Below are positions 35,335 to 46,871 of a DNA stretch of 58,531 nucleotides, one piece after another. Position 1 is the stretch's first letter; each line of letters starts with the position of its first letter. The stretch lies in IMG/VR virus record IMGVR_UViG_3300032297_000473, positions 1 through 58,531 of that record. One strand, written 5' to 3'. Both the position numbers and the translations under genes were made by a program. The notes beneath the pieces were generated by a model, which was not told where the DNA came from, did not search any database, and was given only the letters and a program-made list of their open reading frames with translations. Origin of the DNA: a virus.

Positions 35335-37476
35335 ATGAGCAGACCATTGATAATAGGTGTAGTATCTCCTATAGATACAGGATATTATTTATACGGATAT
35401 GGAAACAATGAATTTGGTCAGCTTGCTGACAATACTTCAGGATTTGCATATAGTCCTCAATTTGTAGGATCTGGATATGTATCGTGTAGTATTGGAAATG
35501 TAGATTCTAATTCACCACATACAATTGTAATAAAATCAGATGGAACACTATGGGGGTGTGGTGTTGCAAGCTTTAATACGTTAACATCACAATATAACAC
35601 TCCCCAGTTTTCATTGGTTCAAATTGGAACAGGATCTGACTGGAAAGCAGTTTCAGTCGGATATTATGGTAATTCATTTATAAAAAGTGACAATACTTTA
35701 TGGATTAATGGAGCGTCCATCACACAATCTAGTAGCGGTTCATGGAAAACCATAAAAGAAGGAGTTCTTGGTAGTAGACTGGGTATTATGCAAGATGATA
35801 CCGCATGGGGTTGGGGAGACAATACGTATGGCCAACTTGGTCAGAACAATACAGTATCATATAGTACAGCATCAGTGCAATTCGGAAGTGGATCAACATG
35901 GCAAGTGCTTGATTTTATGAACCACACAATGGCTGTAAAATCAGATGGAACTTTGTGGGCATGCGGACTCAATACAACAGGACAGTTGGGAATTAATAAC
36001 GTTTTAAATCGAAGTTCGCCAGTTCAAGTTGGCACTGCTTCAAATTGGTCGTATGTGGCGTGTGGTAACAGTCATACACTTGCCGTTAAAACAGATGGAA
36101 CTTTATGGGCATGGGGAAATAATTCAACATATGGTGCATTAGGCACAAACAACACAACAAATAGAAGTTCTCCTGTGCAAGTTGGTACTGGATCTGATTG
36201 GCAATATGTAGTTGGTGGATACAATTTTAGTCTTGCTGTTAAAACAAATGGAACACTTTGGAGTTGGGGATTAAATAACATAAACGCAACGGGAATTTAT
36301 GGTAACGGAGCGTTGGGTTTGGGAGACACTGCACACAGAAGTTCTCCGGTTCAAATCGGAACAGCATCCAATTGGACAAAAAATATCAACGCCACTATAG
36401 TGGGTACTGTTGCAATTAATTCTAATAATGAACTCTATACATGGGGGTCTAATCAATACGGATCTCTTGCAGTGCCACTTTCATATCGTTCATCTATGAC
36501 TCAATTATCAACAACAAAATGGACACATCTTCGTGGCGGACAGAATATTAGTCAAGTTGTACCACCGATAGTAATTGCCAGAAAATCCAACGGTACACTT
36601 TGGAATTGGGGGGCAACAAACAATAGTACAGGTTTTAGAAGTTCTCCTGTTCAGATAGGTTCCAAAACAGATTGGACTGGAAAATATGATGTAGGTGGAG
36701 TTACAGCATATGCAATTGATGCTTCAAATAGATTATTTCTTTTGAGTAATGGAGCCGCTTCACAAATAGGAGCACTAACAGACTGGTTTAATGTTGGAAT
36801 GGCAAATAGAAACGGTAACGTCGAAACAGTTACAATAGCGGCTATAAAAACAAATAATACGATATGGACGTGGGGAAATAATACAGTTGGAGAATTGGGT
36901 AATAACAGTGTTGTTTCTACAACTTCTCCAGTTCAACTCGGACTTGATACAAATTGGTCTGCTTCGTTTGGTGGCGAGGGGCATTTTCTTGCACTTAAAA
37001 CAGATGGAACATTATGGGGTTGGGGACTTAATACATCTGGGCAGTTGGGTATAGGTGATATTGTGAATCGAAGTTCTCCTGTTCAAATTGGTACTGGTTC
37101 AAATTGGAGAATTGTTAGCACAAATCAATTGCACACACTTGCGTTAAAAACAGATGGAACACTGTGGGCGTGGGGAAGTAATGCATATGGACAACTTGGA
37201 CAAAACAATATAATAAATAGAAGTTCTCCTGTTCAAATTGGTACTGGTTCAAATTGGACAAAAGTTGGCACTGGTTATGAATGTTCATTTGCTATAAGAT
37301 CAGATGGAACATTGTGGAATTGGGGCGTTCAAAATTTAAATGGAGCAATTGGTGGATATATATCAGGTATATTAGATACAGCTCCTCGTAGTTCACCAGT
37401 TCAAGTTGGTGCTTTAACTGGTTGGGAAACAATCGGCGCAGAACAAATACGATTAACGGTTTTTTTAAAATCATAA
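35335..37476 (+). CDS. RCC1-repeat beta-propeller protein (probable receptor-binding component)
   Basis: The product has 713 residues. It contains about 14 RCC1-type units marked by DGTLWxWGxNxxGQLG and S(S)PVQ(I/V)GTGSxW. Examples are AWGWGDNTYGQLGQNN, LWACGLNTTGQLGINN, LWAWGNNSTYGALGTNN, IWTWGNNTVGELGNNS, LWGWGLNTSGQLGIGD and LWAWGSNAYGQLGQNN. Fourteen units would make two seven-bladed propellers. Several blades are degenerate (LWINGAS, LFLLSNGAAS). Two blades near the 3' end share a 39-bp identical DNA stretch. The N-terminus (MSRPLIIGVVSPIDTGYYLYGYG) carries no secretion signal. Position among fibre genes suggests a surface ligand-binding role; the target is unknown. Confidence 0.8.
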   Translation: MSRPLIIGVVSPIDTGYYLYGYGNNEFGQLADNTSGFAYSPQFVGSGYVSCSIGNVDSNSPHTIVIKSDGTLWGCGVASFNTLTSQYNTPQFSLVQIGTGSDWKAVSVGYYGNSFIKSDNTLWINGASITQSSSGSWKTIKEGVLGSRLGIMQDDTAWGWGDNTYGQLGQNNTVSYSTASVQFGSGSTWQVLDFMNHTMAVKSDGTLWACGLNTTGQLGINNVLNRSSPVQVGTASNWSYVACGNSHTLAVKTDGTLWAWGNNSTYGALGTNNTTNRSSPVQVGTGSDWQYVVGGYNFSLAVKTNGTLWSWGLNNINATGIYGNGALGLGDTAHRSSPVQIGTASNWTKNINATIVGTVAINSNNELYTWGSNQYGSLAVPLSYRSSMTQLSTTKWTHLRGGQNISQVVPPIVIARKSNGTLWNWGATNNSTGFRSSPVQIGSKTDWTGKYDVGGVTAYAIDASNRLFLLSNGAASQIGALTDWFNVGMANRNGNVETVTIAAIKTNNTIWTWGNNTVGELGNNSVVSTTSPVQLGLDTNWSASFGGEGHFLALKTDGTLWGWGLNTSGQLGIGDIVNRSSPVQIGTGSNWRIVSTNQLHTLALKTDGTLWAWGSNAYGQLGQNNIINRSSPVQIGTGSNWTKVGTGYECSFAIRSDGTLWNWGVQNLNGAIGGYISGILDTAPRSSPVQVGALTGWETIGAEQIRLTVFLKS
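37070..37258 (+). repeat. Pair of identical 39-bp segments in the RCC1 gene
   Basis: The stretches 37070-37108 and 37220-37258 are identical (beginning gaagttctcctgttcaaatt). They code for the SSPVQIGTGSNW strand of neighbouring blades and are spaced 150 bp apart, one blade length. Confidence 0.85.
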
Positions 37477-37477
37477 C

Positions 37478-38992
37478 ATGATAACAGATATTTTATTTAC
37501 GGGTATATTATATTCTGGTGAATTTATATTAGAAACTTTATTCGATCAACATTCGATATTAAAAAATATAAAATTTATTAAAAATGAAAACTCTCTAATT
37601 CCAAAAAAAATTAATTTTATTGTAGTTCGTGAAACCGCTGATATTGCGGCATTTATTGTTCACAAAAATCAAATGGAAAATAACTTATATAATTTTTTAA
37701 ACACATCTATTGAAATTATTCAATTAAAACAAAGTTATGCTTTAATAAGCAATTTTTATAAAATGTTGGTTGAAAATAAAAACAATTATTTTATTATTTC
37801 GTATGACGAGTTAATAAATAATCCACAATATATTATGAACAACATTCATAGTATTCTTGGAATTGAACATTTTTCGTATGACACAACATTTTTAAAATAT
37901 ATCTTACAATTGGATTCTAAAAAAATATTATCTGAATTTTATGATGAGTACGATCAAACAACATTTTGGAATTTAAAATATGAAAGTGCAAAACCAATAA
38001 AAGATATTCAATTGCAATTAGATTATGCATTGAATGGAGATTTTGAAAATGCAAAAATGTTAGTTGATAAACTTGAGCGTGAGCAGCCAATGAACCACAG
38101 AGCGGCATTTAATCGTGGATGGTTTAAAATGAAAGAAGGAAAGTTGTTGGAAGGGCATCGATTATTGGATAGAGGTAGATTAATTAATGTTTTTGGAAAC
38201 AATCCAAACTTACCACTTCCTATATGGAATGGAAAAAAATCAGGAACTGTATTATTTTATCTGGAAGGTGGATTGGGAGACCAAATTCATTTTTTTAGAT
38301 ATGCAAACGTTATTAAAAAAATGAATAATGATGTTATAGTTGCGTGTGACGCTGGTTTGGTAGAACTTTTTACAAACAATACTACATGTAAAGTTATTTC
38401 ACATGATCAAATTAGTTATTTTTATAATGTTGATTGTTGGGTTCCTTCTATGTCAGTGATATCTATTTTACAATATGAATATGAAAATATTTCAAATGAA
38501 CCATATATAGATTTTAAAAAAAAATCTATAGATTCAAATAAAATTACGATTGGTTTAAAATGGTCTGGCAATCCGAAATTTGAACATCAACAACATAGAA
38601 AATTTCCACTTGACTTGTTTTTTGAAAGTGTATATAATACTAACTATAATTATATATCTCTTCAACGAGATGAAGAGTCTGATATGTGTCCATCTTGGGT
38701 AGAAAAACAAAATTTAAACACTTGGATGGACACCAAAAATGCAATTGAAAAATGCGACTTGATTATTAGTTCCTGCACATCCGTTCCACACTTATCAAGT
38801 GCAATGGGTGTTGAAACATGGATTCTTGTTCCAATTTTGCCGTATTTTTTATGGGCACTTCCATCAGAAAAAACACCATATTACAAGAACACAACACTAT
38901 TTAGACAAACTAACAAGTCTAATTGGCACGAACCAATGGAAAAAATAAAATTTAAATTAAATGAATTTGACAATTATATTAAGAACACATGA
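37478..38992 (+). CDS. Sulfotransferase-like / TPR / GT9-like glycosyltransferase fusion
   Basis: The product has 504 residues. The N-terminal part (about 1-150) follows the order of bacterial sulfotransferases: ILYSGEFILETLFDQH at the phosphosulfate-loop position (normally PRSGTTLLE), NFIVVRETADIAAF, and YFIISYDELINNPQYIMNNIHSILGI. The loop residues are lost, so sulfotransfer activity is doubtful. A TPR-like helical segment (about 170-235) links to a glycosyltransferase part: LPIWNGKKSGTVLFYLEGGLGDQIHFFRYA, ITIGLKWSGNPKFEHQQHRK, YISLQRDEE, CDLIISSCTSVPHLSSAMG and the VPILPYFLWAL/LFRQ end, a known arrangement of TPR-linked GT9-like enzymes. It probably glycosylates a fibre or a surface component. 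It starts 1 nt after the RCC1 gene stop. Confidence 0.72.
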   Translation: MITDILFTGILYSGEFILETLFDQHSILKNIKFIKNENSLIPKKINFIVVRETADIAAFIVHKNQMENNLYNFLNTSIEIIQLKQSYALISNFYKMLVENKNNYFIISYDELINNPQYIMNNIHSILGIEHFSYDTTFLKYILQLDSKKILSEFYDEYDQTTFWNLKYESAKPIKDIQLQLDYALNGDFENAKMLVDKLEREQPMNHRAAFNRGWFKMKEGKLLEGHRLLDRGRLINVFGNNPNLPLPIWNGKKSGTVLFYLEGGLGDQIHFFRYANVIKKMNNDVIVACDAGLVELFTNNTTCKVISHDQISYFYNVDCWVPSMSVISILQYEYENISNEPYIDFKKKSIDSNKITIGLKWSGNPKFEHQQHRKFPLDLFFESVYNTNYNYISLQRDEESDMCPSWVEKQNLNTWMDTKNAIEKCDLIISSCTSVPHLSSAMGVETWILVPILPYFLWALPSEKTPYYKNTTLFRQTNKSNWHEPMEKIKFKLNEFDNYIKNT

Positions 38993-39731
38993 TGGTAACA
39001 ATGTTCATGAACCAGAACGTTTACGATATTGTGGTGAGTCTAAATCAAAAGTAATGCTTAAATGTGTAAAATCATTACTGGCATCTGTATCAACATTGCG
39101 TAATATCTGTTATAATGTAGTATGGATTGATGATCATTCAAAAGAAAGTAGTTTATCAGAAATAAAATCATATTTTTATGATTACAATATAACTTATGAA
39201 TTAGTTAATCTAGAAAAATTTGGTAATAATGCAAGTATGGTAAAACAACTTGAAATTGCTAAACAATCTACATCTGATTTAGTGTATTTAGTAGAAGATG
39301 ATTATTTGCATTGTAAGAGTGCAGTACCAGAAATGGTTGATTCATATATAGAGTTTAAAAATAATTTAGATTCTGAAGTTGCAATACATCCATTTGATGA
39401 TCCAGATAATTACAAACCTAATTTTATTGAGCTTACACGAATTGTATTGGGGCAAAACAGACATTGGCGATTGAATTGTTATTCTACATTTACATTCATG
39501 TGCAACCCTGATATAATAAGAGAAAATTGGGATTCTTTTTATAAAATGGCATATTTATACATGACTCCTTTTGGAAATGCGTATAACATACACGAAGGAA
39601 CTACTATCAACAAAATATGGAGAGAGAATGTATATTTATTTACACCTATTCCTTCAGTAGCGTTACATATGCAATTTGATGAACAAAAGGATAAGTATAT
39701 AAATTGGAAAAAATGGTGGGAGGAAAATTAA
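38961..39731 (+). CDS. Glycosyltransferase family 2-like protein
   Basis: The product has 256 residues. It opens with the GT-A start LTIILRTHDG, has NVVWIDDHSKESS (nucleotide-binding acidic pair), and SDLVYLVEDDYLHCKSAVPEM in place of the DxD metal motif. The acceptor-side part includes HPFDDPDNYKP and HWRLNCYSTFTFMCNPD. The ATG lies 32 nt inside the upstream glycosyltransferase gene; it is preferred because the GT-A first strand begins immediately. The two overlapping transferase genes probably act on the same glycan. Confidence 0.72.
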   Translation: MNLTIILRTHDGNNVHEPERLRYCGESKSKVMLKCVKSLLASVSTLRNICYNVVWIDDHSKESSLSEIKSYFYDYNITYELVNLEKFGNNASMVKQLEIAKQSTSDLVYLVEDDYLHCKSAVPEMVDSYIEFKNNLDSEVAIHPFDDPDNYKPNFIELTRIVLGQNRHWRLNCYSTFTFMCNPDIIRENWDSFYKMAYLYMTPFGNAYNIHEGTTINKIWRENVYLFTPIPSVALHMQFDEQKDKYINWKKWWEEN

Positions 39732-40979: not shown

Positions 40980-41564
40980 ATGATCTATCTACAGGATATT
41001 TTAAAAGAAGTTACAGACGCTAATTTATTAGAGCAAGATTTGAGCCGTATCATATATGTTGATTTGGATGGTGTACTGGTAGATTTTGATCGTGGCTTCA
41101 AAGACATTTCAGACGGAATAGATAAATATGACTATGTTAAAAAGCATGGTGTTGATAAGTTGTGGAAATTAATCAATTCATACGGCCAAGAATGGTGGGA
41201 AAATTTAAATTGGATGCCTGATGGAACAAAACTTTGGTCGGCAATTTCAAACAAAAACGTAAAGGTGCTAACGAGCGGAAGTACTCGTAACACAGGAACA
41301 ATGGCTATCAATGGAAAAAAGAAATGGGTAGCAGATCATTTGGGACCGATTGAAACCATTGTCGTAAACAGTAGCCATGAAAAACAAAAATACGCACGTC
41401 CCGGTGATATTTTAATAGACGATTTATACAGCAACATTAGTGAATGGACTGTAAAAAATGGAATTGGTATTTTGCATCGCAATGCAGAAGAAACAATCAA
41501 TAAATTAAACGATGTTATAAATACTCAAAATGAAACCTACGGTTATAGTTGGTCAAACGTATGA
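40980..41564 (+). CDS. HAD-superfamily phosphatase/nucleotidase with a capsid-targeting-like leader
   Basis: The product has 194 residues. The leader is MIYLQDILKE (L-K-E, E10). The HAD core follows: motif I IIYVDLDGVLVDFD (nucleophile and acid-base Asp pair), motif II VLTSGST, motif III Lys in HEKQKYA, motif IV ILIDDLYSN. The short cap (ISDGIDKYDYVKKHGVDKLW ... WWENLNWMPDG) resembles phage-type 5'-nucleotidases. It is predicted to dephosphorylate a nucleotide or other small phosphate ester. The stop overlaps the nucleotidyltransferase start (ATGA), suggesting the two act together. Confidence 0.82.
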   Translation: MIYLQDILKEVTDANLLEQDLSRIIYVDLDGVLVDFDRGFKDISDGIDKYDYVKKHGVDKLWKLINSYGQEWWENLNWMPDGTKLWSAISNKNVKVLTSGSTRNTGTMAINGKKKWVADHLGPIETIVVNSSHEKQKYARPGDILIDDLYSNISEWTVKNGIGILHRNAEETINKLNDVINTQNETYGYSWSNV

Positions 41565-42265
41565 AAATAAGAATTTATAACAACACTCTGAATCCTGATC
41601 TTTGGCAAGACAGCAACACATTGAAGCCAGAAATCAGAGAAGCTTTATTAAAAATCGCACAAGATTTTTATAAAGAAACGGAATTGGAAGCTCCAATCGA
41701 AGATGTTTATATGTTGGGTAGTAGTGCCAATTATAATTGGAGTCCTACTAGTGACATTGATTTGCATGTTGTTATTGATTTTAAAAAAATCAACAGTGAT
41801 GTTGATTTAACTAAGCAATTGGTAGATGCACTCAAATCTAATTGGAACAAAAATCATAATGTTACAATAAAAGGTCGTAAAGTTGAGGTGTATATTCAAG
41901 ATGTTAATGAAAAGAATAGATCTACTGGTGTGTATAGCGTATTGAACAACAAATGGGTGTTGATGCCACAAAAAATTAGAGTGGTATTAGATAACAAATT
42001 GATTCAACAAAAATATACAAACATGGTATTGCAAATTAAAGAGGCAATACAAGAACAAAATTTAGATAAACTTAAAAACGTATTAAAAATGTTATACAAT
42101 ATGAGAGAAGCAGGATTGAGCAAAACTGGAGAATATAGTGCAGAAAATATTGTATTTAAAACACTAAGAAGCAGAGGATTTATAGATCAATTGAAAAATA
42201 CAGTAAATAAATTGTATGATTCTCAAGTTTCAGTCAAGCAAGAAGATATAAAAAATAATAAATAA
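41561..42265 (+). CDS. Pol-beta-type nucleotidyltransferase
   Basis: The product has 234 residues. The nucleotidyltransferase motif VYMLGSSANYNWSPTSDIDL followed by HVVIDF places the two metal-binding Asp residues after GSS, as in MNT/Pol-beta-like enzymes. A third acidic strand is likely in RKVEVYIQD. The C-terminal half is helical. The start at 41561 is favoured over an in-frame start 12 nt upstream because it overlaps the HAD stop (ATGA). It has no head-targeting leader, unlike its partner. The substrate is unknown; it may transfer a nucleotide to RNA, protein or a small molecule. Confidence 0.72.
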   Translation: MKIRIYNNTLNPDLWQDSNTLKPEIREALLKIAQDFYKETELEAPIEDVYMLGSSANYNWSPTSDIDLHVVIDFKKINSDVDLTKQLVDALKSNWNKNHNVTIKGRKVEVYIQDVNEKNRSTGVYSVLNNKWVLMPQKIRVVLDNKLIQQKYTNMVLQIKEAIQEQNLDKLKNVLKMLYNMREAGLSKTGEYSAENIVFKTLRSRGFIDQLKNTVNKLYDSQVSVKQEDIKNNK

Positions 42266-42289: not shown

Positions 42290-42296
42290 TATTTAT
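42290..42296 (+). promoter_or_regulatory. TATTTAT box upstream of the tail tube gene
   Basis: The box lies 36 nt before the ATG at 42333. A Shine-Dalgarno AAGGA sits at 42319-42323, 9 nt before the ATG. This is the leadered arrangement seen for abundant virion proteins here. Confidence 0.5.
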
Positions 42297-42332
42297 ACAT
42301 ATAGAACAATAGAATAATAAGGACAACATACT

Positions 42333-42824
42333 ATGGCAGATCTACTTAATTCAAACGAAATCTTTTTCACAAGTTTTGAACCAAAAGTCAAAAATCGCTT
42401 TATCCTTTATATGGATGGCATTCCTAGCTTTTTGATTTATAAATTTAAACGTCCAACAGTAAAGAGCGAAAAGAAAGTATTGGACCACATCAACATTCAA
42501 CGTTATTACAAGGGTAAAACCACTTGGGATGACGTTACTATGGAATTGTATGATGCTATTGTACCAAGTGGTGCCCAAGCCGTAATGGAATGGGTACGTT
42601 TATCACACGAATCTGTAACAGGTCGTGATGGTTATGCAGATTTCTATAAAAAAGATTTAACAGTTAACGTATTGGGACCAGTTGGCGATAAAGTCGAAGA
42701 ATGGAAATTAGTTGGTGCGTTCATCACAAATGCTGATTTTGGTGAATTAGACTGGAAAGATAGCGGCGAACATTTGAGCGTCAATCTTACGCTTTCTGTA
42801 GATTATTGCGTTCTTCAATACTAA
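42333..42824 (+). CDS. Tail tube protein (T4 gp19-like)
   Basis: This is the subunit of the inner tail tube. The product has 163 residues, the same as T4 gp19. Features include an N-terminal FEPKVKNRFILYMDGIPSFL, then FKRPTVKSEKKVLDHINIQR, KTTWDDVTMELYDAIVPSGA, VMEWVRLSHESVTGRDGYAD and a C-terminal beta hairpin (LSVNLTLSVDYCVLQY). It has a clear Shine-Dalgarno, biased codons and its own terminator, consistent with high expression. Confidence 0.92.
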   Translation: MADLLNSNEIFFTSFEPKVKNRFILYMDGIPSFLIYKFKRPTVKSEKKVLDHINIQRYYKGKTTWDDVTMELYDAIVPSGAQAVMEWVRLSHESVTGRDGYADFYKKDLTVNVLGPVGDKVEEWKLVGAFITNADFGELDWKDSGEHLSVNLTLSVDYCVLQY

Positions 42825-43281: not shown

Positions 43282-44118
43282 ATGAGTGACGAAATTATTC
43301 CAATTACAAGACCATCTAGCGCAGGACCAACGCCACAAGCACCTGTAGCTAAAACTGAAACCAAATATCCTACTGAAATTGTAGAATTGCCAAGCAAAGG
43401 TTATTTTTATTCGCCTGATGATCCACTTAGTAAGGGATCTGTTGAATTGAAAATGATGACGGCAAAAGAAGAAGATATTCTTACCAATGAGTCTTTTTTC
43501 AAAAAAGGAATTGTATTAGATAAGTTATTAGAATCTTTAATTATTGATAAAAGTATTAAAATTGATAATTTTCTTACAGGTGATAAAAATGCATTGTTTA
43601 TTGCTGCTCGTCGTTTGGCATATGGTGATAGTTACGGTCCAATCGAAGTAACATGCAATGCATGTAGAGAAAAGAATGATGTTACAATTGATTTGAGTGA
43701 AATCAAAACAAAAGAATATGATTTCAGTAACAAACAAAAAGGTGTCAATTTTTTTGAATTTGTTCTTCCTTATTCAAAACATGTATTGAAAGTAAAAATT
43801 CTTAGTAACAAAGACGATACTGAAATTGAAAACGAATTGAAGGGACTTGCAAAAATTGGAAAAACTAGTAGCGAAGTAACTACTCGTTTAAAACACATCA
43901 TTGTTTCTGTTAATGGAAACAATGATAAAGCATACATTCGTCAATTTGTTGACAGTGAGTTGTTATCAAGAGATAGTATAGAACTTCGTAAATTCATTCG
44001 ATCTATGTCCCCTGATATCGATTTGAATTTCAATTTTGTATGTGAACATTGTCAGGCTGAAGAAAGAGTAGGTGTACCAATGACGGTACAATTTTTTTGG
44101 CCTGAATCTGGATTATAA
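43282..44118 (+). CDS. Baseplate hub assembly / tail chaperone-type protein (T4 gp26-like)
   Basis: The product has 278 residues. After a Pro-rich start it has EIVELPSKGYFYSPDDPLSK and ELKMMTAKEEDILTNESFFK, the hallmark opening of the gp26-type family in T4-like phages. Two CxxC pairs (C125-N-A-C128 and C254-E-H-C257) probably form a zinc ribbon. It ends FFWPESGL near a run of seven T. The gene is between the tail tube and the tape measure, the place where many phages encode frameshift-linked tail assembly chaperones. It is probably needed for baseplate or tail assembly rather than being a major virion component. Confidence 0.62.
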   Translation: MSDEIIPITRPSSAGPTPQAPVAKTETKYPTEIVELPSKGYFYSPDDPLSKGSVELKMMTAKEEDILTNESFFKKGIVLDKLLESLIIDKSIKIDNFLTGDKNALFIAARRLAYGDSYGPIEVTCNACREKNDVTIDLSEIKTKEYDFSNKQKGVNFFEFVLPYSKHVLKVKILSNKDDTEIENELKGLAKIGKTSSEVTTRLKHIIVSVNGNNDKAYIRQFVDSELLSRDSIELRKFIRSMSPDIDLNFNFVCEHCQAEERVGVPMTVQFFWPESGL

Positions 44119-44320
44119 ACTTTATATTCACAAACAATTGTTTGAGTTAGCATATTATGGTCATCTTTGTGACTTGACCACAGGATATCATTTACCTGTA
44201 TATCTTCGCAATTATTATTATAAATTGCTTGTTGATGCCAAAACAAAAGAGGCAGAGTCTTATGAAAACAAAGGCGAGCCTCCACAAAAGATCGCCAAGC
44301 CGAATATTAATAGTCGTTAA
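44099..44320 (+). CDS. gp51-like C-terminal domain, probably expressed by frameshifting
   Basis: An open frame without any ATG encodes a short helical domain: LYIHKQLFELAYYGHLCDLT then GYHLPVYLRNYYYKLLVDAK and a Lys/Glu/Asn-rich tail. The pattern LPVYLRNYYYKLL resembles the small gp51-type hub assembly domain seen next to gp26-like genes. The frame is open from 44084 and is shifted +1 (equivalently -2) relative to the upstream gene, which has TTTTTTT at 44092-44098 just before its end. All other genes here use ATG, so a frameshift fusion is more likely than initiation at the TTG at 44138. The tape measure gene follows. Confidence 0.5.
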   Translation, partial: GLNLDYKLYIHKQLFELAYYGHLCDLTTGYHLPVYLRNYYYKLLVDAKTKEAESYENKGEPPQKIAKPNINSR

Positions 44321-44372
44321 TTTTGTAAAAACAAACTTAATGCCATATTTATATCTATATAATCATTAATTT

Positions 44373-46871
44373 ATGGCAGATCCAAAAACAACACCTGAAG
44401 CTATTGCAGAAGCCTTGCGTTTGCAAGAAAAACAAGCTTTAGCTGCAAAGCAAACTGTTGATCAGTTAAAAGAGCAACGTGATATTCAACGTGAAATCGC
44501 AATTGCTGCAAAAGCAACTGGTATTCCATATGATCATATAACAGATAATATTGGTCATAGTTTAAGAGAAATGGGTTTGTTTGCAAATCTGCAAGAAAAA
44601 TTAAATGTTAGAACTCAACAACGACAAAAGTTTGAAAATGAGTTGCGTAGCACTTTATTAGATCACAATAAGAATACAACTAATTTGGTTGATAAAAATA
44701 TCAAAAATTTAGCTGCTGAAAAAAATCTAAAGGAAGTAACAAAAGCTCATAATGAAGCAATAGCAAGCGGATCTAAATCACTTCAAAGAAAATTAGAAAG
44801 AGAATTAAATGCTGCTGCAAAGAAAGCACTTGCTGCCAAAAACGAACAAATAGTTGCTAATGCAATTTATCAAACTTCATTGAATCAGGTTAGAGAACAA
44901 GAAAAACTAGTTGACATTGAACAGGAATATATTGAAAAATTAAAAAATCAAAATAAACTCGCATCTATTGCATCTGGTGTTTTAGATCAAATGGGTGAGT
45001 TGGGTGAACATATTAAAAATAAAAGTTTAAATTGGACAGACGTATTAAAAAAAGGTGTAACTAACTTTTTGGAATATGACAAAGTAGCTTTTTCATTGCG
45101 TAAAAGTATGGGCTTATTGAGAGGTGATTTTGATATTTTACAAAAAAATGTAAAAGACTTAGGAATTGAATTACAAAATTTGGGCATTTCATTTGAACAA
45201 GTTGCCGCATCTACAACTGCTATTGCAAACGAATTCAGTATGTTTGTTGCATCTAGTAAAGATTTAGTTACGAATGTAAGTGTAATGGCAGCGCAATTTG
45301 GTATTGCAGAAACAGATTCGGTAAAATTCCTAAAAACAATGTCTTCAGTTGCAGGTACTACAATTCAAGCACAAGAAGGAATGATGGGATTTGCAAAAGA
45401 GCTATCAAATGCAGCAGGAGTGCCAATGCCATTTGTAATGAAAGATGTTGCTGAAGCTGGAGATGACGTTCGTATTTTTACAGGACGTAGCGCAGAAAAT
45501 TTAATAAAAGGAGCAGTTCAAGCACGTTTAATGGGTACAACGATGCAAAATATGGCAAATACTGCTAAAAAGTTATTGGATTTTCAAACAAGTATTGCCG
45601 ACGAAATGGAAGCAAGTGTTTTGCTTGGTAAAGATATCAATTTTGAACAGGCACGTAATTTAGCATATCGTAAAGATTTCGTTGCTGCAAATCAAGAAAT
45701 ATTGCGTATTGCAAAACAAGTAAATTTTGACGGAATGGACCCATATCAAGCTGAAGCATTCGCAAAAGCAAGCGGCAAAAGTTTACAGGAATTGCAAGAA
45801 ATGTTGCAAGCAGATCAACAAATTGAATCTGTTCGCAAAGGAACAAACGAACAATTAAAAGCACAATTAGAAAAATTTGATCAATTAAAACGAGCACGTA
45901 AAGAAGAAATTCAAGATGTTGGAAAAATTGCAGAAGCAAACGCTCGAAATAAAATGAATCAAGAAAAGATAAATATTTTATCTAATGAATTTAACAAGTT
46001 GATGAGTAAATTATCAAAACCAGTAACAGATGTAATTGAACGTTTGACTGACAACTTATTAGATATTGGTATCAAATATTTACCAATGATCAACGAAGGT
46101 ATTACAAATTTAGCACCCGCATTTGGTCTTTTTTGGTCAGTTGGAAAAAACATTTTTATCGGATTGACGAATGGATTTGGTCTTTTACAAAAAATTGGTG
46201 ATTTTTTTGGAAAATTAACACTTTCTGCAAGACCATTTATCAAAACAATTGGTAGTATTGGAAAATTTGGAGTTTCCATATTTAAAATATTTGGATCCAC
46301 CCTGCGTATTTTTGGACGATTTTTAGGACCAGTCGGAGTTATTATAAATTTATTTACATTTATAGGTAAATTAATGGATCGTTGGAATGAAACCCCAAAG
46401 GGAATTTTGGGTGGTTTAAAAGCAATTGGATTAGCTTTATTGGATACTATTATTGAACCATTTAAAATAGCATATGAGTGGGTATCATCAATATTTGTAG
46501 GCAAATCTCCATCTCAACTTGGTCTTGGTATTTTAGAAGGTATTAAATCTGTTGGCGGAATGTTATTGGATGCATTGACATTACCATTTAGAACAGCATT
46601 TAATTTTGTTAGTGGTTTATTTGGTGGTCCAAAGCTACCAAAGATGTCAGAAGTTGTATTTGGTAGCAAAGAAGAAGCAGGCGGAGGCACTGCAAAAGGA
46701 TCTGATATTGGTACAATCATTGCGGAAGGAAACAAACAAGTTGTAGCAAAACTAGATGAGTTAATTACATTAATGTCAAATGGTGGTATTGCTGTAAACA
46801 TTGATGGAACAAAAGCAAGTATGTTATTAGCAAAAGCACAAAAAGAACGTGGTGCATTTGGAGCAATTTAA
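44373..46871 (+). CDS. Tail tape measure protein (T4 gp29-like)
   Basis: This sets tail length and is part of the injection path. The product has 832 residues. The N-terminal part (about 1-200) is a long charged coiled coil. The middle is helical with mixed composition. The C-terminal third has several hydrophobic stretches (NIFIGLTNGFGLLQKIGDFF, FGRFLGPVGVIINLFTFIGK and TLPFRTAFNFVSGLFGG) and ends in a Gly-rich segment. This is the usual tape measure plan of long helices with hydrophobic segments near the C-terminus. It follows the chaperone-type pair directly. Confidence 0.78.
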   Translation: MADPKTTPEAIAEALRLQEKQALAAKQTVDQLKEQRDIQREIAIAAKATGIPYDHITDNIGHSLREMGLFANLQEKLNVRTQQRQKFENELRSTLLDHNKNTTNLVDKNIKNLAAEKNLKEVTKAHNEAIASGSKSLQRKLERELNAAAKKALAAKNEQIVANAIYQTSLNQVREQEKLVDIEQEYIEKLKNQNKLASIASGVLDQMGELGEHIKNKSLNWTDVLKKGVTNFLEYDKVAFSLRKSMGLLRGDFDILQKNVKDLGIELQNLGISFEQVAASTTAIANEFSMFVASSKDLVTNVSVMAAQFGIAETDSVKFLKTMSSVAGTTIQAQEGMMGFAKELSNAAGVPMPFVMKDVAEAGDDVRIFTGRSAENLIKGAVQARLMGTTMQNMANTAKKLLDFQTSIADEMEASVLLGKDINFEQARNLAYRKDFVAANQEILRIAKQVNFDGMDPYQAEAFAKASGKSLQELQEMLQADQQIESVRKGTNEQLKAQLEKFDQLKRARKEEIQDVGKIAEANARNKMNQEKINILSNEFNKLMSKLSKPVTDVIERLTDNLLDIGIKYLPMINEGITNLAPAFGLFWSVGKNIFIGLTNGFGLLQKIGDFFGKLTLSARPFIKTIGSIGKFGVSIFKIFGSTLRIFGRFLGPVGVIINLFTFIGKLMDRWNETPKGILGGLKAIGLALLDTIIEPFKIAYEWVSSIFVGKSPSQLGLGILEGIKSVGGMLLDALTLPFRTAFNFVSGLFGGPKLPKMSEVVFGSKEEAGGGTAKGSDIGTIIAEGNKQVVAKLDELITLMSNGGIAVNIDGTKASMLLAKAQKERGAFGAI

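Follow-up and report, generated by a model that had tools for sequence, protein, structure and literature searches.

A probable programmed +1 frameshift in a T4-like tail assembly chaperone locus of environmental phages

The tail assembly chaperones of phage lambda, gpG and gpGT, are a short and a long form produced by a -1 frameshift near the 3' end of one gene. The locus lies between the genes for the tail tube and the tape measure, and the C-terminal domain of the long form has no start of its own. Atkins et al. 2016 (PMC5009743) describe this G-T frameshifting as widespread and conserved among phages with long tails 'except T4', and a -2 shift has been reported for Mu (PMC5009743). In T4, gp26 and gp51 are hub assembly chaperones, and gp51 is absent from the particle (PMC3004832). 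Tail assembly chaperone genes of T4-like phages were identified by Vladimirov, Gautam, and Davidson in 2022; as described in two papers citing that work, some phages have short and fused long genes, whereas others carry poly-T -1 signals (PMC10885494, PMC12846349).

The locus described here lies on a 58.5-kb IMG/VR virus fragment (58,531 nt, referred to in full as the window). We consider a programmed +1 frameshift that yields a long tail assembly chaperone the best reading of its sequence, with a probability of about 0.9. Like the lambda locus, it would provide a short and a long form by frameshifting near the 3' end of a gene, it is situated between the tail tube and tape measure genes, and its C-terminal domain lacks its own start. 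However, the putative shift is +1 at a sense codon rather than -1, the window's clade adds a 5' hairpin, and the N-terminal domain is a PF12322 domain (~280 aa) that is not gpG-like by sequence. As far as the 2022 study can be judged from the papers that cite it, the +1 class, the YUU_UGG_C site and the covarying upstream hairpin appear to be new.

A gp26-like gene and a helical domain in the +1 frame

The gene order in the window is tail tube, gp26-like gene, T domain and tape measure, and the coordinates of the outer two genes confirm the placement given in the original prediction.

42333–42824, + strand: tail tube gene (context); phrog_4542 tail tube, E 6e-25
43282–44118, + strand: gp26-like gene, the putative short tail assembly chaperone form (TAC-N); ATG to TAA, 278 aa, PF12322 / phrog_150
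44099–44320, + strand: T domain (TAC-C), helical, predicted in the long form only; +1 frame, from fusion translation, pN/pS and AF2
44373–46871, + strand: tape measure gene (context); BLASTP match (E 2e-12) to the protein annotated as tape measure in Flavobacterium phage immuto

The tail tube is 62% identical to that of Microcystis phage Mel-JY01, and relatives infect Flavobacterium and Microcystis. We found no relatives in the bacterial genome collection that was searched, and no tRNA genes in the window. The sequence TATTTATA is present in 24 copies in the window compared with 11 expected (0 of 100 shuffles as high). Copies at 42290–42297 and 44346–44353 are found a short distance before the tail tube and tape measure genes, and the element is perhaps a late-promoter element. 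Elsewhere, the window encodes a 713-aa protein of RCC1 repeats in the tail region (35335–37476; Pfam RCC1-like, E 2e-81), a protein with a marginal sulfotransferase match beside a marginal glycosyl transferase family 2 match (37478–39731), and, immediately upstream of the tail tube gene, a nucleotidyltransferase-like protein (41549–42265; MTPAP-like palm domain, E 1e-6).

The gp26-like protein matches PF12322 (T4_baseplate, the gp26/gp51 family) with 54.9 bits against a curated cut-off of 24.5 (E 1.3e-14), and phrog_150, 'baseplate hub', with an E-value of 7e-17. The AF2 model of this part, which was folded separately from the T domain, is confident (pLDDT 87). Its first fold match in the PDB is the HK97 tail assembly chaperone 2OB9, a weak and non-significant match (E 0.5, prob 0.54) that we regard as suggestive. 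The matches among viral models are gp26-type baseplate hub proteins, and a search of the PDB by sequence returned no match.

The gene ends with the codons CAA TTT TTT TGG CCT GAA TCT GGA TTA TAA, in agreement with the earlier observation that it stops just past a run of seven T (44092–44098). The +1 frame is open from 44084, directly following a TGA at 44081–44083, to a stop at 44318–44320. As predicted, a search of 44084–44320 in this frame found no ATG, and the first near-start is a TTG at 44138, followed by a second TTG at 44174. The predicted fusion is 345 aa in length with the junction ...VQFF-GLNLDYK..., where the junction peptide would be VGVPMTVQFFGLNLDYK following a +1 shift and VGVPMTVQFFFGLNLDYK following a -2 shift. 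The region past the gp26 stop is under strong purifying selection in the +1 frame: pN/pS is 0.089 (about 0.09), and differences at the first, second and third codon positions number 244, 95 and 946 among 61 close pairs. In 105 of 142 unique +1 ORFs no ATG occurs after the preceding stop up to and including codon 20 of the domain, and the whole +1 ORF of two relatives (L057 and L058) is free of ATG, GTG and TTG codons. At the junction FGL is invariant in the +1 translation and FFWP is invariant in the frame-0 translation, thus the site codes in both frames.

AF2 predicts three helices for the T domain of the window (pLDDT 81), consistent with its original description as a gp51-like helical domain insofar as it is helical. 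The gp51-like part of that description is less well supported. The domain has no match in PHROG, including phrog_634 (the gp51 C-terminal domain), and its similarity to the corresponding cyanophage profile is marginal. A fold search against viral models also gave no significant match.

The proposed slip site and the direction of the shift

44092–44103, + strand: putative +1 frameshift site TTT TTT TGG CCT, conserved as TTYTTTTGGCCT; variants with a broken T run keep YTT_TGG_CCT
44095–44097 to 44096–44098: proposed slip of the P-site TTT, with GGC (44099–44101) as the next codon

A gp26 protein search of IMG/VR provided 80 first-pass relatives (49–92% identical). Conservation of the T run and of the frame relation had been suggested as a check on the prediction. 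The frame relation is retained in every case, with gp26 ending in TTYTTTTGGCCT and the downstream domain in the +1 frame in 80 of 80 relatives, but at least four lineages have an interrupted T run. Among 37 divergent representatives (at most 80% nucleotide identity), the site reads TTT TTT TGG CCT in 33, TTC TTT TGG CCT in three and TTT CTT TGG CCT in one. In the preceding 600 bases of the same representatives phenylalanine is encoded by TTT 251 times and by TTC 100 times, and CCT makes up 64 of 229 proline codons (28%). A scan that did not depend on the gp26 search, and that looked for the DNA site with the beginning of the domain, identified at least 120 contigs. Among the scan matches listed, 80 loci were readable; 71 of these are new contexts, and frame 0 is open for 50 codons upstream in all 71. 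A chance origin of the +1 arrangement is excluded.

All seven Ts are kept in 98 of the 102 members of our tree. The run is interrupted as TTC TTT TGG in L003, L026, L054–056 and the L173 group, and as TTT CTT TGG in isolated Flavobacterium immuto phages, and the fusion frame is kept in each. Parsimony on the tree requires three such changes, and L003, a near-duplicate absent from the tree, adds a fourth. Throughout, the P-site codon can re-pair one base 3' (UUU to UUU, or CUU to UUU in immuto), and TTC at the P-site codon was found in no member examined. The comparison of these lineages identifies the direction of the putative shift as +1, the only simple route available where the T run is broken. 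An uninterrupted run is not essential but probably makes the shift more efficient, and other slip routes may add to the +1 shift in lineages with an intact T7.

The original prediction had allowed a shift of '+1 (or -2)', and the comparison upholds the frameshift and its +1 form. A -2 shift on the T run, as in Mu, would result in the same net frame with an extra phenylalanine (FFFGL) and is possible on TTT TTT T. However, re-pairing two bases 5' is impossible in the lineages with a broken run, where the -2 codon is UCU in TTC TTT TGG and UUC, facing a leucine tRNA, in TTT CTT TGG, and a -2 mechanism is accordingly very improbable. We also regard as improbable that RNA polymerase drops one U within T7 to produce an in-frame fusion mRNA. 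The retention of T7 in nearly all divergent members is what polymerase slippage would need, but runs of four or fewer Ts in at least four lineages still keep the frame, so slippage is unworkable there as well. Seven Ts is also a short run for efficient polymerase slippage. Additionally, the selection on GGCCT, and on a hairpin in one clade, is a better fit to translation than to an event during transcription.

The T domain might instead be translated as a separate gene, from a non-ATG start or by re-initiation past the gp26 stop. The TTG codons in the window could serve as starts, and two relatives (L183 and L188) encode the domain as a separate ATG-started gene. Against this, the two relatives without any ATG, GTG or TTG in frame offer no such start, and the amino-acid sequence encoded between the site and the TTG (FGL..) is conserved. 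The original prediction took separate ATG-started genes in relatives as evidence against a frameshift. They do occur in a few, but there the signal has decayed: L183 has lost both the slip site (TTC TTG TAT) and the hairpin (-0.4 kcal/mol), and the hairpin of L188 is weak (-3.2 kcal/mol). This pattern supports the frameshift model, and independent initiation is unlikely to account for the locus. A sequencing error or pseudogene, in which an indel split a single gene, has a negligible likelihood since over 100 divergent contigs share the same break and both frames are under purifying selection.

An upstream hairpin in the window's clade

44073–44090, + strand: upstream RNA hairpin (arms 44073–44078 and 44085–44090), from MFE, folds and covariation; lineage-specific

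The hairpin ends one nucleotide before the first phenylalanine codon of the site. In 35 representatives, the 24 nt abutting the site have a mean MFE of -8.23 kcal/mol, compared with -4.28 kcal/mol in synonymous recodings. The excess is limited to this segment, and the other segments in the preceding 300 nt are within 0.9, with the exception of the overlapping one. In the ETPMG group five pairs at -18 to -14 and -9 to -5 are 96% paired and show covariation of 0.339 compared with 0.158 when shuffled (0/500), with wobble-wobble compensation at one pair (GC 5, UA 4, CG 3). The covariation effect in the VPxT group is smaller (1/500) and comes from an alignment that leans towards structure, as 12 of the 35 sequences, many of them folding in a different register, were excluded by hand. 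The register also differs between groups, indicating that a hairpin is kept rather than a fixed sequence.

In the set selected by site, the median MFE is -2.6 and 14 of 67 members have a rank of at most 0.05. Nine of the 71 new contexts reach this rank, compared with zero or one of 71 in control segments. Presence of the hairpin (MFE of -5 or below) clusters on the tree, requiring 17 changes compared with 34 when shuffled. The hairpin is under selection in the window's clade. We rejected it as a universal element, because many other lineages have a weak hairpin or lack one altogether, and it consequently cannot be required. A search of Rfam returned only a chance snoRNA match. Shine-Dalgarno sequences precede 10 of 53 genes in the window compared with 2.8 expected, which is low yet above background, and given these numbers we do not claim that the hairpin replaces a Shine-Dalgarno sequence because the host lacks one.

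The bacterial prfB gene (encoding RF2) offers a close parallel for the site. At its CUU_UGA_C sequence the P-site tRNA slips forward from YUU to UUU, as proposed here, and a stimulator lies immediately 5', in this case a Shine-Dalgarno sequence 3 nt from the shift codon (PMC5009743). The immuto sequence CUU_UGG_C differs from that of prfB by a single base. The proposed site is unlike prfB in that the A site holds the sense codon UGG rather than a stop, the upstream element is an mRNA hairpin rather than a Shine-Dalgarno duplex, and the shift is not autoregulatory. A stem-loop behind the ribosome has also been proposed to drive forward movement in the bypassing of T4 gene 60 (PMC5009743); unlike that case, the shift here would be of a single base, with no coding gap and no stop in the A site. 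It is conceivable, though we put it at somewhat less than even odds, that the hairpin is an RNA-encoded stand-in for the prfB Shine-Dalgarno duplex. It would form inside the mRNA exit cleft, dislodge the E-site contact and drive the ribosome forward by one base, and lineages that have a weak hairpin or none would rely on intact U7 instead. If this is true, bacterial +1 frameshifting at a sense codon would involve a new type of 5' stimulator.

Related architectures and a proposed mechanism

Other candidate sites of this type are found in related genes, each with the domain in the +1 frame: AAC TTT CTA in a jumbo phage (LR756508, L083), TTT TTT CAC in Bacillus phage SP-15, GAG TTT TTT AGT in Listeria phage LIS04 and TTC TTT CGT in Streptococcus phage GXN1. 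The GXN1 site (L085, near 3705) continues as TTC TTT CGT C, and we take its central TTTCGTC to resemble the influenza PA-X +1 site. Cyanophages, KVP40 and ZPAH1 have, like the window, a PF12322 gene, then a helical T domain that lies in a different frame, and directly after it a long ORF of the tape-measure type. However, their T domain is in the -1 frame following an in-frame U_UUU_UUC heptamer, as seen in 79 of 80 parsed cyanophage loci (the parsing script did not recognise the remaining one); the heptamer is also present in Yut3. In all, gp26 genes that end in this heptamer with a gp51-like domain in the -1 frame include L092–L171, L193, L195, L090 and L196 (cyanophage and KVP40-like). Approximately 10 nt past the heptamer in L092–L171 are the short palindromes GATCCATATGGATC, GGTCCATATGGACC and GGTTCATATGAACC, whose variation is compensatory in appearance. 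Most cyanophages have an ATG near the start of the T domain and could therefore translate it separately. In ZPAH1 the domain is unannotated and no ATG precedes it, and gp51 of P-SSM7 is annotated as truncated. The long form is also missing from the annotations of Flavobacterium phage immuto (L081, 4013–4976) and Microcystis phage Mel-JY01 (L082, 2902–3982), in which the T domain is recorded as a separate hypothetical protein (immuto35A_232 and WWT39326.1).

T4 gp26 and gp51 both match PF12322 (8.8e-64 and 3.9e-52), and gp51 consists of this domain and a C-terminal part in which residues 147–246 match phrog_634, the family to which the small proteins of cyanophages and KVP40 belong. With hhalign, the C-terminus of T4 gp51 aligns to the T profile of cyanophages at a probability of 87%. 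The T domain of the window is marginally similar to the cyanophage T domain (hhalign probability 10%, E 0.003), and hhalign found no similarity between it and the gp51 C-terminus. The correspondence with T4 thus rests on the PF12322 domain and gene order. The link to T4 that was originally proposed stands in outline, as gp26 and gp51 are both PF12322 proteins and gp51 is extended, but not as a sequence match of the T domain. T4 resembles the window in having PF12322 proteins as a short form and a long, C-terminally extended form; unlike the single gene of the window, it has two genes and no frameshifting. T4 appears to make the same two proteins from two separate genes, and on the sequence evidence the locus is very probably a short/long tail assembly chaperone of the lambda gpG/gpGT kind in T4-like form.

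We propose that one locus gives rise to two forms of the chaperone. The majority of ribosomes would terminate at the gp26 stop and release the short form. In a minority, while UUU with its peptidyl-tRNA-Phe occupies the P site and UGG (Trp) the A site, the tRNA would move one base forward from UUU_UGG_C to U_UUU_GGC, and these ribosomes would read on into the helical C-terminal domain to produce the 345-aa form. In the window's clade the small mRNA hairpin would sit directly behind the site, in the place of the prfB Shine-Dalgarno duplex, where it may promote the forward slip by loosening the E-site contact or resisting backward movement. By analogy with lambda gpG and gpGT, the short form would be abundant and cover the tape measure, and a few copies of the long form would bring in tail tube subunits. 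The sequences show the gene order, the conservation of site and frame, selection on the +1 frame, the direction of the shift by comparison and, in one clade, selection on the hairpin. That ribosomes shift here, how often they do so, what the hairpin does and that the proteins act as chaperones are inferred.

A single chaperone family is found with all of its architectures side by side: a +1 shift, a probable -1 shift, separate genes, and duplicated short and long genes. This makes the evolutionary path to T4 gp26 and gp51 testable. In the Flavobacterium and Microcystis relatives that have been isolated, current annotation overlooks the long form. The +1 signal is a simple one that many environmental phages retain, and in one clade the covarying hairpin upstream of it would represent a little-studied way of steering ribosomes.
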